Below are positions 28,725-34,511 of a stretch of DNA of 52,189 nucleotides, one piece after another. This DNA comes from Bacteroidota bacterium (lineage in GTDB: Bacteria; Bacteroidota; Bacteroidia; AKYH767-A; OLB10). Under the pieces are notes generated by a model, which saw only the letters and a program-made list of their open reading frames with translations, had not been told where the DNA came from and searched no databases. Location: the NCBI GenBank assembly GCA_947453935.1, contig CANGJU010000006.1, positions 1 to 52,189 of the forward strand. The letters run 5' to 3'. Every line of letters starts with the position of its first letter. Positions within the stretch are counted from its first letter, which is position 1. The translations under genes were made by a program, and so were the position numbers.

Positions 28725-29669
28725 TTATATATTTATTACGATTCCATTAATTATTCGTATTGTCGACATTTGAGAATTACTTCCTAATGGCTCATATACT
28801 GGAAGAAATAACTGGGATTCAAATGAGATGTTTTTCCAAACAACCTGCAATCCAGCACCACATGAGAGCAATTTCATTGATGTACCACTTTGCCAGTTCT
28901 TTCCAATCTGAATGCCTTTGGTATTTTCATAAGCTCCATTAAATGAAGGGGCGATTATCCAGTCTCTATTTATTTTAATCTTTCTAAAACACATTGCATT
29001 AATACTTGATATTGGAGCTACCCTTTCATTATACAAATTGTAATTATTAACACGCATTAAGCTACTAATCATCAATCCCATTTTTTTATAACCTAAAGAC
29101 ATATTACCAAAAATTAAATAATCAAGTGAGCCAGTCCCTGCTTGATTATAAAGTCCAATTCGTTGTCCATTTTCACTTAAGAAATTATTTCTTCCTGTTG
29201 GAAGCTTAAAGCCAAATCCCGCTGAAAACCTATATTTAAATCTCTGATCTACTTTATTATTCACCCAATATCGATTAACAAAAAAGGAAAAATCTCCTAC
29301 TCCACTTACAGTTTCTTGTTCATCCCCAACAACTTCCTTATTCATGGTATAAGGCAAACTTGTAACTAAATCCCACTTTTTGTGAAAAAGAAAACGCCCC
29401 CTCAACTCAGCAACTCTGAAAATCTCATACGAGGAAGTATTTTGATTTCCTGCAGGAGAATGTGCAGTCTTAAGTATGCCTCCATCAGGAAACCAAGCAT
29501 TTTCTCCATTGTAGTATTGATTTTTAAATGCTCTATATCTATAGAAAATTGAGATTGAATGTTTGTCTTCGTTAGGCAAAATGCCTCCAAAGCCACCACA
29601 CACATCACATGCGGTAACATTTATTGATGTCAGGATAATAGCACCTAACATCAGCGTATATTTCTTCAT
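28725..29669 (-). CDS. Outer-membrane beta-barrel/transporter-like protein with mature N-terminal CDVCG motif
   Basis: Signal peptide then TACDVCGGFGGILPNEDKHSISIFYRYRAF; strand-rich; 2 nt from the diheme peroxidase gene. Confidence 0.6.
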   Translation of the reverse strand: MKKYTLMLGAIILTSINVTACDVCGGFGGILPNEDKHSISIFYRYRAFKNQYYNGENAWFPDGGILKTAHSPAGNQNTSSYEIFRVAELRGRFLFHKKWDLVTSLPYTMNKEVVGDEQETVSGVGDFSFFVNRYWVNNKVDQRFKYRFSAGFGFKLPTGRNNFLSENGQRIGLYNQAGTGSLDYLIFGNMSLGYKKMGLMISSLMRVNNYNLYNERVAPISSINAMCFRKIKINRDWIIAPSFNGAYENTKGIQIGKNWQSGTSMKLLSCGAGLQVVWKNISFESQLFLPVYEPLGSNSQMSTIRIINGIVINI

Positions 29670-29671
29670 TT

Positions 29672-30703
29672 TTACTTTTCGCTAAATCGTTCGTCGTTTA
29701 GGAAAGTAGGATCTGTAAGTGTATTTAAGAAAAGTAATAATTGCTGCTTTTCAGCGTCTGTAATTGACATATTACCTCCTGCTAAAATTGGATCTATCGT
29801 AGTGCTTTGCACAATTCCATTTCGGTAATGATCGATCACTTTACTGAGTGAATTTATTCTACCATCATGCATATATGGAAATGTAACGGCTACATTTCTG
29901 AGAGATGGCACTTTGAATTTACCAGAGTCGCTTGGCTGAAGTGTTATTCTTGCCCTGCCTGGATCCGAAGTAAAATGAAGATCTAAACCGTTATTACGAT
30001 AGTCAAGATCTGTCATTAAAGGTTCTCTGTGACAACTTTCACATTTCGATTTAAACAACATATAACCATTTTGCTCATCGACGGTAAAAGTTGCTGTACC
30101 TGCTTTAACCTGGTCATATTTGGAATTGGCAGAGATTAATGAAGACATGAACTGAGCCATTGCCCTAGTCATTGCCTGCGTGGTTATAGTATCGCTACCA
30201 AATGCCCTTTTAAACATTTCAGGATAGAATTTAGAGCGTTTAAGTTTAGCTATTACCCTAGCAACATCTTCATTCATTTCAACTGGGTTAGTAATAGGAC
30301 CTATTGGCTGAACCTCGATATGGTTTGAACCTCCATCCCAGAAAAAATTGGAATGCCATGCCAAATTAAATAGCGGTGGCGCATTTCTGTTACCTTCCAA
30401 ATCGTTAATTCCGTGACTTACTTTATGATCTAAATGTGCAAACGCAGCAAACTGCTGATGACAACTTCCACAAGATACTGAGCTATCTAATGATAGAATT
30501 GGGTCATAAAACAATTTCTTCCCAAGCCTGAACCCATTATAAGTAACAGGATTATTATTCAATTGGCCTGAAGTTGCCGGAAATCCGTCAGGCTGATAGA
30601 ATAAAGGCTTTGTAATAATGGGGTCAACATCAGGTACACAAGCCTGAATTGACCATACTATTACAATTATTAAAACTAAATATATTTTCAGATTTACTTT
30701 CAT
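29672..30703 (-). CDS. Diheme cytochrome c peroxidase / MauG (MbnH-like) family protein
   Basis: Two CxxCH motifs (SVSCGSCHQQFAAFAH, CESCHREPLMTD), GKKLFYDPILS, VPSLRNVAVTFPYMHDGR. Confidence 0.93.
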   Translation of the reverse strand: MKVNLKIYLVLIIVIVWSIQACVPDVDPIITKPLFYQPDGFPATSGQLNNNPVTYNGFRLGKKLFYDPILSLDSSVSCGSCHQQFAAFAHLDHKVSHGINDLEGNRNAPPLFNLAWHSNFFWDGGSNHIEVQPIGPITNPVEMNEDVARVIAKLKRSKFYPEMFKRAFGSDTITTQAMTRAMAQFMSSLISANSKYDQVKAGTATFTVDEQNGYMLFKSKCESCHREPLMTDLDYRNNGLDLHFTSDPGRARITLQPSDSGKFKVPSLRNVAVTFPYMHDGRINSLSKVIDHYRNGIVQSTTIDPILAGGNMSITDAEKQQLLLFLNTLTDPTFLNDERFSEK

Positions 30704-30712
30704 TAATTAAAA

Positions 30713-30736
30713 ACCGGAGCCCCAAAGAGCCCCGGT
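30713..30736 (-). terminator. Terminator-like hairpin between the MbnP-like and MbnH/MauG-like genes
   Basis: On - strand ACCGGGGCTC TTTG GGGCTCCGGT followed by TTTTT, ending about 10 nt before the downstream ATG. Confidence 0.6.
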
Positions 30737-30748
30737 CAAATTGATTTT

Positions 30749-31546
30749 TTATAGAGGATCGTTATGAATATGATCAAATTTAAACATATCAGCATAGTTA
30801 GTTGCTATACCCGATGATGTTGGTCCAACCATCATTACTGTTGACCCACTTGCAATTGTTACATTACTAGGATTTTTAAATATCTCTAAAACATCCGCTG
30901 CAATATGAATTTCTGCTTCTCTTTTACCTCCATCAACAATTAATATCGATGGTGTAAAATCAATTGATACTGTTCTTAGTCCACTGTAAGTTCCAGTAAA
31001 TCCACCGATATGATATTTATAGTTGTTATTAGAAGATGCTGATGATTGCCCTTCTAATTTCATGAATATATAGCCTGTTGTCCAACTCCAAAACATTCCA
31101 TTAGCAGGATCCAAAGCCCCTGTTTGAGAACCTGACACATTGCGCGCGCTGTCCACACCAATCGTGTATTCTAAGCCCGTATATTTACCACCAGGGATAT
31201 TCGCTAAATCCACTTTTAATGAATTAGTATCATTGGCGTCAATTAAAAAATAAGAGTTAGGCACTTCATATTTTGATCCATCTTGCTTTATCAGTTTTAC
31301 ATTTGAAACATAATATTTAAACATCGAAACATTGAAAGATTCTCCTGCAGCATTCACATAATTAGTTGCACCAGATGCATCTAATGCAACAGTTCCAGCA
31401 ATATTCATAAATTCAATTCCAACATCACCTGCATTGTAGGTAGTTGTTCCGGGATTTGAAGGGGTGGTTGTTTCATCGTCATTACATGAAACAATAGAGA
31501 TTGCAACAAATGCAATCATTAACATATTTAAAAATTTATTTTTCAT
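30749..31546 (-). CDS. MbnP family protein (lipoprotein), paralogue 1
   Basis: SCNDDETT lipobox; MFKYYVSNVKLIKQDG, GMFWSWTTGYIFMKLEG, C-terminal MFKFDHIHNDPL. Confidence 0.85.
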   Translation of the reverse strand: MKNKFLNMLMIAFVAISIVSCNDDETTTPSNPGTTTYNAGDVGIEFMNIAGTVALDASGATNYVNAAGESFNVSMFKYYVSNVKLIKQDGSKYEVPNSYFLIDANDTNSLKVDLANIPGGKYTGLEYTIGVDSARNVSGSQTGALDPANGMFWSWTTGYIFMKLEGQSSASSNNNYKYHIGGFTGTYSGLRTVSIDFTPSILIVDGGKREAEIHIAADVLEIFKNPSNVTIASGSTVMMVGPTSSGIATNYADMFKFDHIHNDPL

Positions 31547-31607
31547 TTAATTGTTTTTTTTTGATTTTGATTTTGATTTAATTTTCAAATTTGTAAATAG
31601 ATAGCAA

Positions 31608-31979
31608 CTATAACCTTGGAGGTTGAAAATTATTACTCAAGAAACCAATACTCAATGAAACTATTTTAATATGATTGATTTTTTGGATAAAAAAGAAAAA
31701 AAATGTTAATCCTTCCAGCATATTTAATTCGGAAACAAATTCTAGCTTTTGCTCAATAACTGTATTTGATGACTCGCGCTTTTCTTCTTGCTTTAATTGC
31801 TTGGTTAATTGACAATATCCTTTGCAACAGTTATTTTTAAGCTCTTTCTTTTCGCAAAGGTTATTAGCAATATAATCGCGGTTAATAAAAAAATCTACTA
31901 ACAATAATGTTTTGCTAGCACTCGATAAAAAAACCAAGAGCGTTAGCATAATCACAATATTGTTTTTAAACACTTGCAT
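31608..31979 (-). CDS. Small Cys-rich membrane-anchored protein
   Basis: N-terminal TM followed by CEKKELKNNCCKGYCQLTKQLKQEEK; resembles small Bacteroidota proteins I recall in metal/TonB loci. Confidence 0.6.
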   Translation of the reverse strand: MQVFKNNIVIMLTLLVFLSSASKTLLLVDFFINRDYIANNLCEKKELKNNCCKGYCQLTKQLKQEEKRESSNTVIEQKLEFVSELNMLEGLTFFFFFIQKINHIKIVSLSIGFLSNNFQPPRL

Positions 31980-31989
31980 AATTAAGTTT

Positions 31990-32020
31990 TACAAATATAA
32001 ATCTAACAAAAGTACAATCA
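31990..32020 (-). promoter_or_regulatory. Candidate promoter of the small Cys-rich protein gene
   Basis: - strand reads ACATTGTGATTGTACTTTTGTTAGATTTATATTTG: TATATTTG -7 element with upstream TTG at about 20 bp. Confidence 0.45.
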
Positions 32021-32064
32021 CAATGTTTTAAATAATTAGTAATTCTGACATAAATCAAACAATT

Positions 32065-32844
32065 CTAGTATTTCTTTACAAAGGAAAACATGTCTTTGTA
32101 GTTATCTGCAATAATTGGAGGAAGATGACCTGGCAACGTTACATTAGGAATATCCGCAATACTTAAATCACTCGGATTTTTAAAGAACTCCTGAACGTCA
32201 GTTTTAATTTGAATTTTCGTGTTTAACGACTTATTTATCTCTATCGACTGGCCATTAAAATACAGTGTTGACCACCTTAATGAATTGGTCCCATCATAAT
32301 CATGATAACCACTAATATGATATTGGAATAAACTATCCGTTCCTGCCAACGGACAACGCCCTTCCATTTTTACAAAAATATAACCTGTTGACCAGCTCCA
32401 AACCATTCCATTACTCGGATCAAGCGCTCCACCTTGTACTCCTTTGGAAAGAGTAGTACTGTCTACACCAATCATGAATTCAATCCCGATGTATTTACCG
32501 GCAGCAACATTATTTAAATTATTTAATAACGACAGCGGTTTACCGGCATCAATTAACCAATAGGTATCCGGCAGATAATAGCGAGAACTATCCGGTTTTA
32601 TTAATCGAATGTTAGAAAGGTAATACTTAAAAACATTCACAGAATACTCCTCTCCAGCTGAGTTTAAATAATTAGTATTACCTGTAATGTCCAGATCCTG
32701 GTTATCGACTTTATTGACAAATTCAACACTTAAGGTACCAGGCAAAATAGTATTGCCGTTGGGGTCTAAGGTCTCTTTATCACACCCACTAAAAACTGCG
32801 AATACTATTGCTGCAAGAACAACACAATTAAATTTTCTCATCAT
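32065..32844 (-). CDS. MbnP family protein (lipoprotein), paralogue 2
   Basis: SGCDKETLD lipobox; VFKYYLSNIRLIKPD, GMVWSWSTGYIFVKMEG; C-terminus NYKDMFSFVKKY. Confidence 0.85.
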   Translation of the reverse strand: MMRKFNCVVLAAIVFAVFSGCDKETLDPNGNTILPGTLSVEFVNKVDNQDLDITGNTNYLNSAGEEYSVNVFKYYLSNIRLIKPDSSRYYLPDTYWLIDAGKPLSLLNNLNNVAAGKYIGIEFMIGVDSTTLSKGVQGGALDPSNGMVWSWSTGYIFVKMEGRCPLAGTDSLFQYHISGYHDYDGTNSLRWSTLYFNGQSIEINKSLNTKIQIKTDVQEFFKNPSDLSIADIPNVTLPGHLPPIIADNYKDMFSFVKKY

Positions 32845-32846
32845 TT

Positions 32847-34511
32847 CTATCTGATTAAAGTAAAAATATCTCTTTTTCTAACGCTATCAAAACCATCAAA
32901 TTTATAACGGACTGTATAACCGTAAACCCCAATTTGTGAAGGAACTCCATCCACTAAACCATCCCACCCTTTTGAAATATCCTGAGTTTTAAAAACAATT
33001 TGTCCCATTCGATTAAATATAATTAAATCGTATTCGGAAACATCATTTCCATAACCCATAAACACATCATTTACACCGTCTTCATCGGGACTAAATGCAT
33101 CTGGGAACCAAACATAATTACCACATCCAACAACGATTTGTGCAGAATCGCTCGCTGTACATCCAGCAGCATTCTCAACAATTACAGTGTAAATTCCTGA
33201 ATCAGCAACAATAATAAATGATGAAGTATCACCTGTACTCCATAGGTATTTTTCAAAACTCCCCGCGTTTAATTTAACAGCATCACCAGGACAAATTTTA
33301 ATGAGTCCTCCAATATTTACTTTCGGATTTGCATTAGGTCCTACGCCAATAGTAAATGGCAAAGTAACATCACAACTATTTGTGGTACCAACTAAAGTAA
33401 CATAATACTGGCCTGGGGCTAAATTATTAACCGTACTTCCTGATGCTCCTATCGGAATCCACTTAATAGTTGGATTAGGAACTAAACTAACGGTAGCCGT
33501 AGCCGTTCCATTTGTATCGTCAATACATGTTACATCAGTTGATGTTACATTAAAATCAGGTATGATGACTTGCTTTGTAATTGTTCTTGTTCCAATACAT
33601 GGATAAGTAATTGTCAACTCTACATCAAACTGTCCCGCTCCTGAAAAGGTATGATTAGCACTTACTCCGTTTGCAATATTGCTTGATGAAGTTGGATCAT
33701 CAAAATCCCATGAATATGTAGAAGGACAATCAGACGATGTAGCATCAAATGAAACACTTCCATTTCCAGCACATGTAATATTAAAGTCGTATGTAGGTTC
33801 TTGGATTTCTCCTACATAAACCTGATCGAATGCTATTCCATCGTAATTATTACAAGAAGTACCAGACCCGAATATAAAACGAAATTTAACGGTTGGATTT
33901 CCTGCTAAAAAACTCAAGCAATGAGATGCTTCAAGCCATTGCCCGCTTCCGTTTCCACCTAAACACCCACCAGAACTATTTTGCAAATTGCCAGACCAAC
34001 CATGCGTTGGTGAAGCGAGTCCACCAAGGTTAGTTATGTTTGAACTATTAAACCAGTTTTTATTGTAACAATCAGAAGGGTCATTTGCATTTCCAATATT
34101 CGACCATGTAACGCCATTATTGATTGAAAACTGAAAACTTCCTCCATCATATTGTCGCTCGGTGTCCCAGAAAATAGAAAATTTGATAATAGGTCTTGTC
34201 AAAGTCGTAAAATCAAAACAAGGACTTTCCACAAACGACTTTTCCCCGCCGTTGTAGGAATTGCCAGACAAGTTACCACTGATCCAGCATTTACTTCCTG
34301 ATGAAGCTGCATTGATAGTAACTTTAGTTGGTGTACCCCAAGCCCAGTCGCTATTTGTTCCACCCGATGTCCAATTACCATTGGAATTTTCAAAACCTTC
34401 ACTGTATGGATAAGATGATATACATTGACCAAAAGAATCGGCAAAAAAAGTCACGACCATTACAATCATTAAAACATACCTTAGCGATAGTGACAATTTG
34501 GAAGACGACAT
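32847..34511 (-). CDS. Secreted PKD-containing protein with gliding motility-associated (T9SS type B) C-terminal domain
   Basis: Signal peptide, PKD-like YSWDFDDPTSSS, C-term WFPDAFSPDEDGVNDVFMGYGNDVSEYDLIIFNRMGQIVFKTQDISKGWDG. Confidence 0.88.
   Translation of the reverse strand: MSSSKLSLSLRYVLMIVMVVTFFADSFGQCISSYPYSEGFENSNGNWTSGGTNSDWAWGTPTKVTINAASSGSKCWISGNLSGNSYNGGEKSFVESPCFDFTTLTRPIIKFSIFWDTERQYDGGSFQFSINNGVTWSNIGNANDPSDCYNKNWFNSSNITNLGGLASPTHGWSGNLQNSSGGCLGGNGSGQWLEASHCLSFLAGNPTVKFRFIFGSGTSCNNYDGIAFDQVYVGEIQEPTYDFNITCAGNGSVSFDATSSDCPSTYSWDFDDPTSSSNIANGVSANHTFSGAGQFDVELTITYPCIGTRTITKQVIIPDFNVTSTDVTCIDDTNGTATATVSLVPNPTIKWIPIGASGSTVNNLAPGQYYVTLVGTTNSCDVTLPFTIGVGPNANPKVNIGGLIKICPGDAVKLNAGSFEKYLWSTGDTSSFIIVADSGIYTVIVENAAGCTASDSAQIVVGCGNYVWFPDAFSPDEDGVNDVFMGYGNDVSEYDLIIFNRMGQIVFKTQDISKGWDGLVDGVPSQIGVYGYTVRYKFDGFDSVRKRDIFTLIR

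Follow-up and report, generated by a model that had tools for sequence, protein, structure and literature searches.

Gene content and layout of the locus

We analysed a window of 52,189 nucleotides, a single contig from a 2.2-Mb Bacteroidota draft genome that is 80% complete; because the genome is a draft, further partners may be missing. Six minus-strand ORFs lie at 28725–34511, separated in transcription order by 2 nt (from the T9SS type-B gene to mbnP2), 85, 61, 45, and 2 nt (from mbnH to the outer-membrane gene). An earlier note, made from the sequence alone, had described six consecutive minus-strand genes with these two 2-nt gaps, and the ORF coordinates agree. Listed in the order of transcription, the features are:

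32847..34511 (minus strand): T9SS type-B protein with a PKD domain, 554 aa, first gene of the run; PF13585 CHU_C, PF18911 PKD_4, TIGR04131
32065..32844 (minus strand): MbnP paralogue P2, a 259-aa lipoprotein with an M-V-W-S-W motif; PF20243, 159 bits; genus-level duplicate
31608..31979 (minus strand): small Cys protein, 123 aa, with an N-terminal hydrophobic segment, C-x9-C-x3-C and a terminal PP; found at 57 of 80 MbnP loci
30749..31546 (minus strand): MbnP P1, a 265-aa lipoprotein with mature start CNDDE and an M-F-W-S-W motif; PF20243, 194 bits; fold match to 7l6g
30712..30737 (minus strand): terminator-like GC hairpin followed by a T run, between mbnP1 and mbnH; z −4.35
29672..30703 (minus strand): MbnH-like dihaem enzyme, 343 aa, predicted lipoprotein (Cys22), CxxCH at 78–82 and 221–225, Tyr293; PF03150, TIGR04039
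28725..29669 (minus strand): outer-membrane beta-barrel, 314 aa, predicted mature N-terminus CDVCG; found at 62 of 80 loci

Across the whole draft, the only two MbnPs and the only MbnH-like protein are those of this locus. The note had seen no methanobactin genes in view, and a search of the entire 80%-complete genome for MbnB (TIGR04159) likewise returned no match. The HMM search that the note had proposed for MbnP and CCP/MauG gave Pfam matches well over the cut-offs, and the type-B domain of the 554-aa protein also scores over its own; on sequence grounds, the family matches of the MbnP, CCP_MauG, and T9SS type-B proteins are not chance. Consensus promoters were rarer than in shuffled sequence, and were uninformative.

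Hairpins lie at the position of the one listed above in four relatives (L077, L078, L084, L090; three of the four from the same genus), with stems unlike that of the window, while none was found between the mbnP1 and mbnH positions of L080, L083, and L088. Our guess is that the hairpin could hold MbnH below its substrates.

Two MbnP lipoproteins and an MbnH-type dihaem enzyme

Both MbnP scores compare with a Pfam cut-off of 27 bits. Against the NCBIfam equivalog TIGR04052, P1 and P2 reach 60.9 and 39.6 bits and miss the cut-off of 140. The motif M-x-W-x-W-x-x-G-Y-x-F-x-K-x-E-G, which the earlier note had reported as common to the two, is present in both sequences (MFWSWTTGYIFMKLEG, MVWSWSTGYIFVKMEG). 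In an alignment of 60 MbnP relatives, M151, W153, W155, and H179 are conserved in 58–59, and P1 and P2 possess all four. As neither the P1 sequence nor a P1 profile matched any PDB entry, we resorted to a fold comparison, which covered the P1 model only (AlphaFold, pLDDT 89). Only one PDB structure matched it significantly, the copper protein MbnP from Methylosinus trichosporium (7l6g), with E between 1.9e-10 and 1.4e-9 over six chains and a TM of about 0.55. At its metal site M. trichosporium MbnP has a His and a Met together with a kynurenine that derives from the first Trp of WxW; M151 and H179 would correspond to the Met and His of that site. Family scores, the P1 fold, and the diagnostic residues agree with the two MbnP paralogues that had been proposed.

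In the tree, P1 and P2 fall into two clades within one well-supported family-level clade of 17. Five P2s cluster with relocated copies from two genomes (G003 and G004; support 100/97), which dates P2 to around the origin of the genus, and P2 has a longer branch than P1. Judged by this topology P2 is a genus-level duplicate, with one MbnH predicted to serve both proteins. From its lipid Cys onwards P1 reads CNDDE, and two or more acidic residues occupy this stretch in 49/60 MbnPs. Such acidic starts resemble the lipoprotein export signal described for Bacteroidota (PMC5080379), making surface exposure of MbnP plausible.

Some MbnP-fold proteins lack the Trp at M+2 (MWFG type). They are encoded in G121 and G038, genomes in which no close MbnH is present, and also in G114 and G177, which carry MbnH plus other MbnPs; this small sample fits the Trp being the substrate of MbnH. 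Four loci (L199, L200, L201, L202) encode MbnP-fold proteins in which M-W-F-G or M-F-W-N replaces WxW, and the gene precedes that of a small C-x4-C-H protein (e.g., NCSYAGCHSG), of which the one scanned, in L200, has no Pfam match. A further MbnP subfamily retains only the first Trp (M-x-W-P-x-x-M-G-G-G-Y; L064, L068, L069, L070, L095, L096) and adjoins a MauG-like gene of its own.

The dihaem protein matches CCP_MauG (PF03150) with 184 bits (cut-off 25.6). Its top NCBIfam model is MbnH (TIGR04039, 214 bits, under the cut-off of 363), followed by MauG at 176 bits, and all of 40 relatives match both models. The two CxxCH motifs to which the earlier note had drawn attention in a MauG-like protein are indeed there, as CGSCH and CESCH, and both recur in 40/40 relatives. 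Equally invariant are Y293 and the lipobox Cys22, the latter implying that the enzyme should be lipid-anchored. Aligned with phmmer, Y293 falls opposite MauG residue 294 and a Tyr of MbnH 6e1c; at or next to that position the peroxidases shown have Met. W122, P136, and E142, aligned by spacing only, are placed like W93, P107, and E113 of MauG. Best model, diagnostic residues, and pairing with MbnP support an assignment to the MbnH type.

Further MauG-like genes occur in other loci. Hymenobacter operons (L176, L179, L182, L191) carry a second, longer MauG-like gene (382–417 aa) after the barrel gene. A second type of MauG-like/MbnP locus that includes a YHYH-domain protein is present in the family to which the window belongs and in one more family (L059, L063, L065, L067, L091, L113); the one YHYH-domain protein scanned has a T9SS type-A tail.

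A conserved operon with two uncharacterised partners

We compared 80 MbnP loci from named genomes, collected by the W-x-W pattern and consequently biased to WxW proteins. Partners were counted with HMMs derived from loci at the class level; the two sets have some genomes in common. The barrel is encoded at 62 of these loci, the small protein and MbnH at 57 each, most commonly in the order small–MbnP–MbnH–OM. There are 54 cases of adjacent MbnP and MbnH genes, separated by a median of 2 nt. All 18 MbnP genomes without an adjacent MbnH possess a close one elsewhere (best E 1e-123 to 1e-160), and none of 19 MbnP-negative genomes has an MbnH match below 1e-100. No MbnP relative was found in viral contigs; plasmids yielded three distant ones, in Deinococcus and Ideonella.

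Of the six-gene neighbourhood put forward in the earlier note, conservation extends to the small Cys-rich protein, MbnP, MbnH, and the CDVCG outer-membrane protein, which had been named as a candidate partner. It does not extend to the other suggested partner, the T9SS type-B protein: this was present at 6/80 loci, all close kin, and we rejected it as a partner; it is probably a lineage-specific passenger. The conserved association of the other genes is observed, as are the family and fold of MbnP and the family and diagnostic residues of MbnH. The comparison supports the small Cys protein and the barrel as conserved, uncharacterised partners of MbnP/MbnH in Bacteroidota, and by its sequence the operon is a methanobactin-free MbnP/MbnH operon from a distinct branch of that phylum.

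The small protein has Cys at positions 42, 51, 52, and 56. C-x9-C-x3-C is present in 107/108 members of its family and the terminal PP in 105. We found no family for it in Pfam, NCBIfam, or the PDB; NCBIfam matches of the family were scattered and weak, and we judged them to be chance. Encoded in 133/247 class genomes, the family also heads TonB-receptor operons with PepSY, HMBD, YHS, and YtkA proteins. Operons of this sort, with TonB receptors, PepSY, HMBD, or YtkA proteins, are found apart from MbnP in L204, L205, L207, L209, and L214.

For the barrel, the model (pLDDT 85) matches FapF and the COG4313 channel 4rl8 with a Foldseek probability of 1.00, while the sequence itself has no Pfam or NCBIfam match. 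PF13557 was found in 7/28 relatives and is absent from the window protein. CDVCG follows the signal peptide, so that the mature form would start CDxCG; a third Cys occurs after it in 30/45 relatives, at a position where the window barrel has Gly.

In relatives the operon also encodes SCO1/SenC, cytochrome c, YHS, and HMA proteins, with SCO1 adjacency mostly confined to one genus, Pedobacter. We also noted a short HH-x-K lipoprotein (c5) with a C-terminal GG...TE at 14–15 of the 80 loci and at L110:6790-7167; the window operon does not encode it.

A proposed role in copper handling

The reading we favour, and hold to be fairly probable, is a methanobactin-free copper-handling operon of a Bacteroidota type. 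The lipid-anchored dihaem MbnH would convert Trp153 into kynurenine, by oxidation, in each exported MbnP lipoprotein, and ripened MbnP would then bind Cu(I) at a site including the conserved Met and/or His. With its N-terminal hydrophobic segment as an anchor, the small C-x9-C-x3-C protein may take or relay Cu(I) via its thiols, and the CDxCG barrel may serve as the passage for free or complexed copper through the outer membrane. If the barrel passes copper, the module would feed the metal inward; in some relatives SCO1 and the respiratory cytochromes would receive it. Our inferences in this scheme are that Trp is oxidised and that the metal is copper, as well as what the small protein and the barrel do and which way transport runs. 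A copper role appears likely given the SCO1/SenC, YHS, and HMA genes beside MbnP in relatives—SCO1 is a copper chaperone—and the HMBD neighbours.

A bolder extension concerns the small family, which might represent an undescribed Bacteroidota Cu(I) relay common to two routes: TonB receptors on the one hand and, on the other, a TonB-independent one through the CDxCG channel and kynurenine-ripened MbnP. We offer this tentatively and would sooner expect it to fail than to hold.

Copper handling could also mean defence, with MbnP and the small Cys protein buffering excess envelope Cu(I) and the barrel exporting copper or another ligand. YHS, HMA, and HMBD domains do occur in copper-resistance settings as well, and the closest solved barrel fold is FapF, an export channel. 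However, the SCO1/SenC and cytochrome c operon-mates point to copper supply, the TonB-receptor operons headed by the small family encode importers, and in the runs examined we noticed no efflux pump, P-type ATPase, or multicopper oxidase. We therefore give defence a minor, though appreciable, chance. Somewhat less probable still is that the same chemistry serves another role or metal, MbnH ripening a redox, sensing, or iron/zinc MbnP that transports no copper: the neighbouring HMA, YHS, and HMBD domains are not copper-specific, but the MbnP fold matches that of a copper protein, 58–59/60 relatives conserve M, W, and H, and SCO1 is among the neighbours.

The least probable alternative would make the dihaem protein an ordinary H2O2-detoxifying cytochrome c peroxidase that lies beside MbnP by chance. 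Its top single PDB sequence match is in fact a dihaem peroxidase (1iqc), yet the C-terminal haem ligand position holds Tyr rather than Met in 40/40, the gene adjoins MbnP at a median gap of 2 nt, and the two co-occur almost strictly. Based on Tyr293 and this co-occurrence we rejected the peroxidase explanation, which we rate as highly improbable.

Comparison with known systems

MbnP/MbnH are known mainly from methanotrophs and methanobactin operons. The M. trichosporium pair (7l6g, 6e1c; TIGR04052/TIGR04039) shares with the window the MbnP fold, WxW, and an adjacent dihaem enzyme with a Tyr ligand. In contrast to that pair, the window operon lacks methanobactin genes and has two MbnPs per MbnH; its MbnH has a lipobox, both proteins stay under the respective NCBIfam cut-offs, and a small Cys protein and a CDxCG barrel are present instead of a methanobactin TonB transporter. 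Relative to MauG of methylamine dehydrogenase, the enzyme is alike in its two haems, Tyr ligand, and W/P/E spacing, but scores 176 bits against 214 for MbnH, and the adjoining gene encodes MbnP. The modelled outer-membrane protein has a barrel fold like that of COG4313/PF13557 channels and FapF, from which it differs by its CDxCG mature N-terminus and the lack of a Pfam match.

A kynurenine-containing Cu(I) site with a dihaem peroxidase-like partner gene is also described for CorA/CorB and MopE/SACCP of methanotrophs (PMC3912023). An earlier study found no marked sequence similarity between MbnP and CorA or MopE (PMC3621798), and the P1 model had no significant fold match to either.

The operon is a candidate for copper passage independent of TonB, and its small protein belongs to a widespread family without a Pfam, NCBIfam, or PDB entry. 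New compared with the known pair are this conserved small Cys protein, the CDxCG barrel, a predicted lipoprotein MbnH, and two putative substrates per enzyme. Since named strains of Pedobacter and Hymenobacter share the operon, the role of copper sites with kynurenine beyond the methanotrophs becomes testable in tractable strains.
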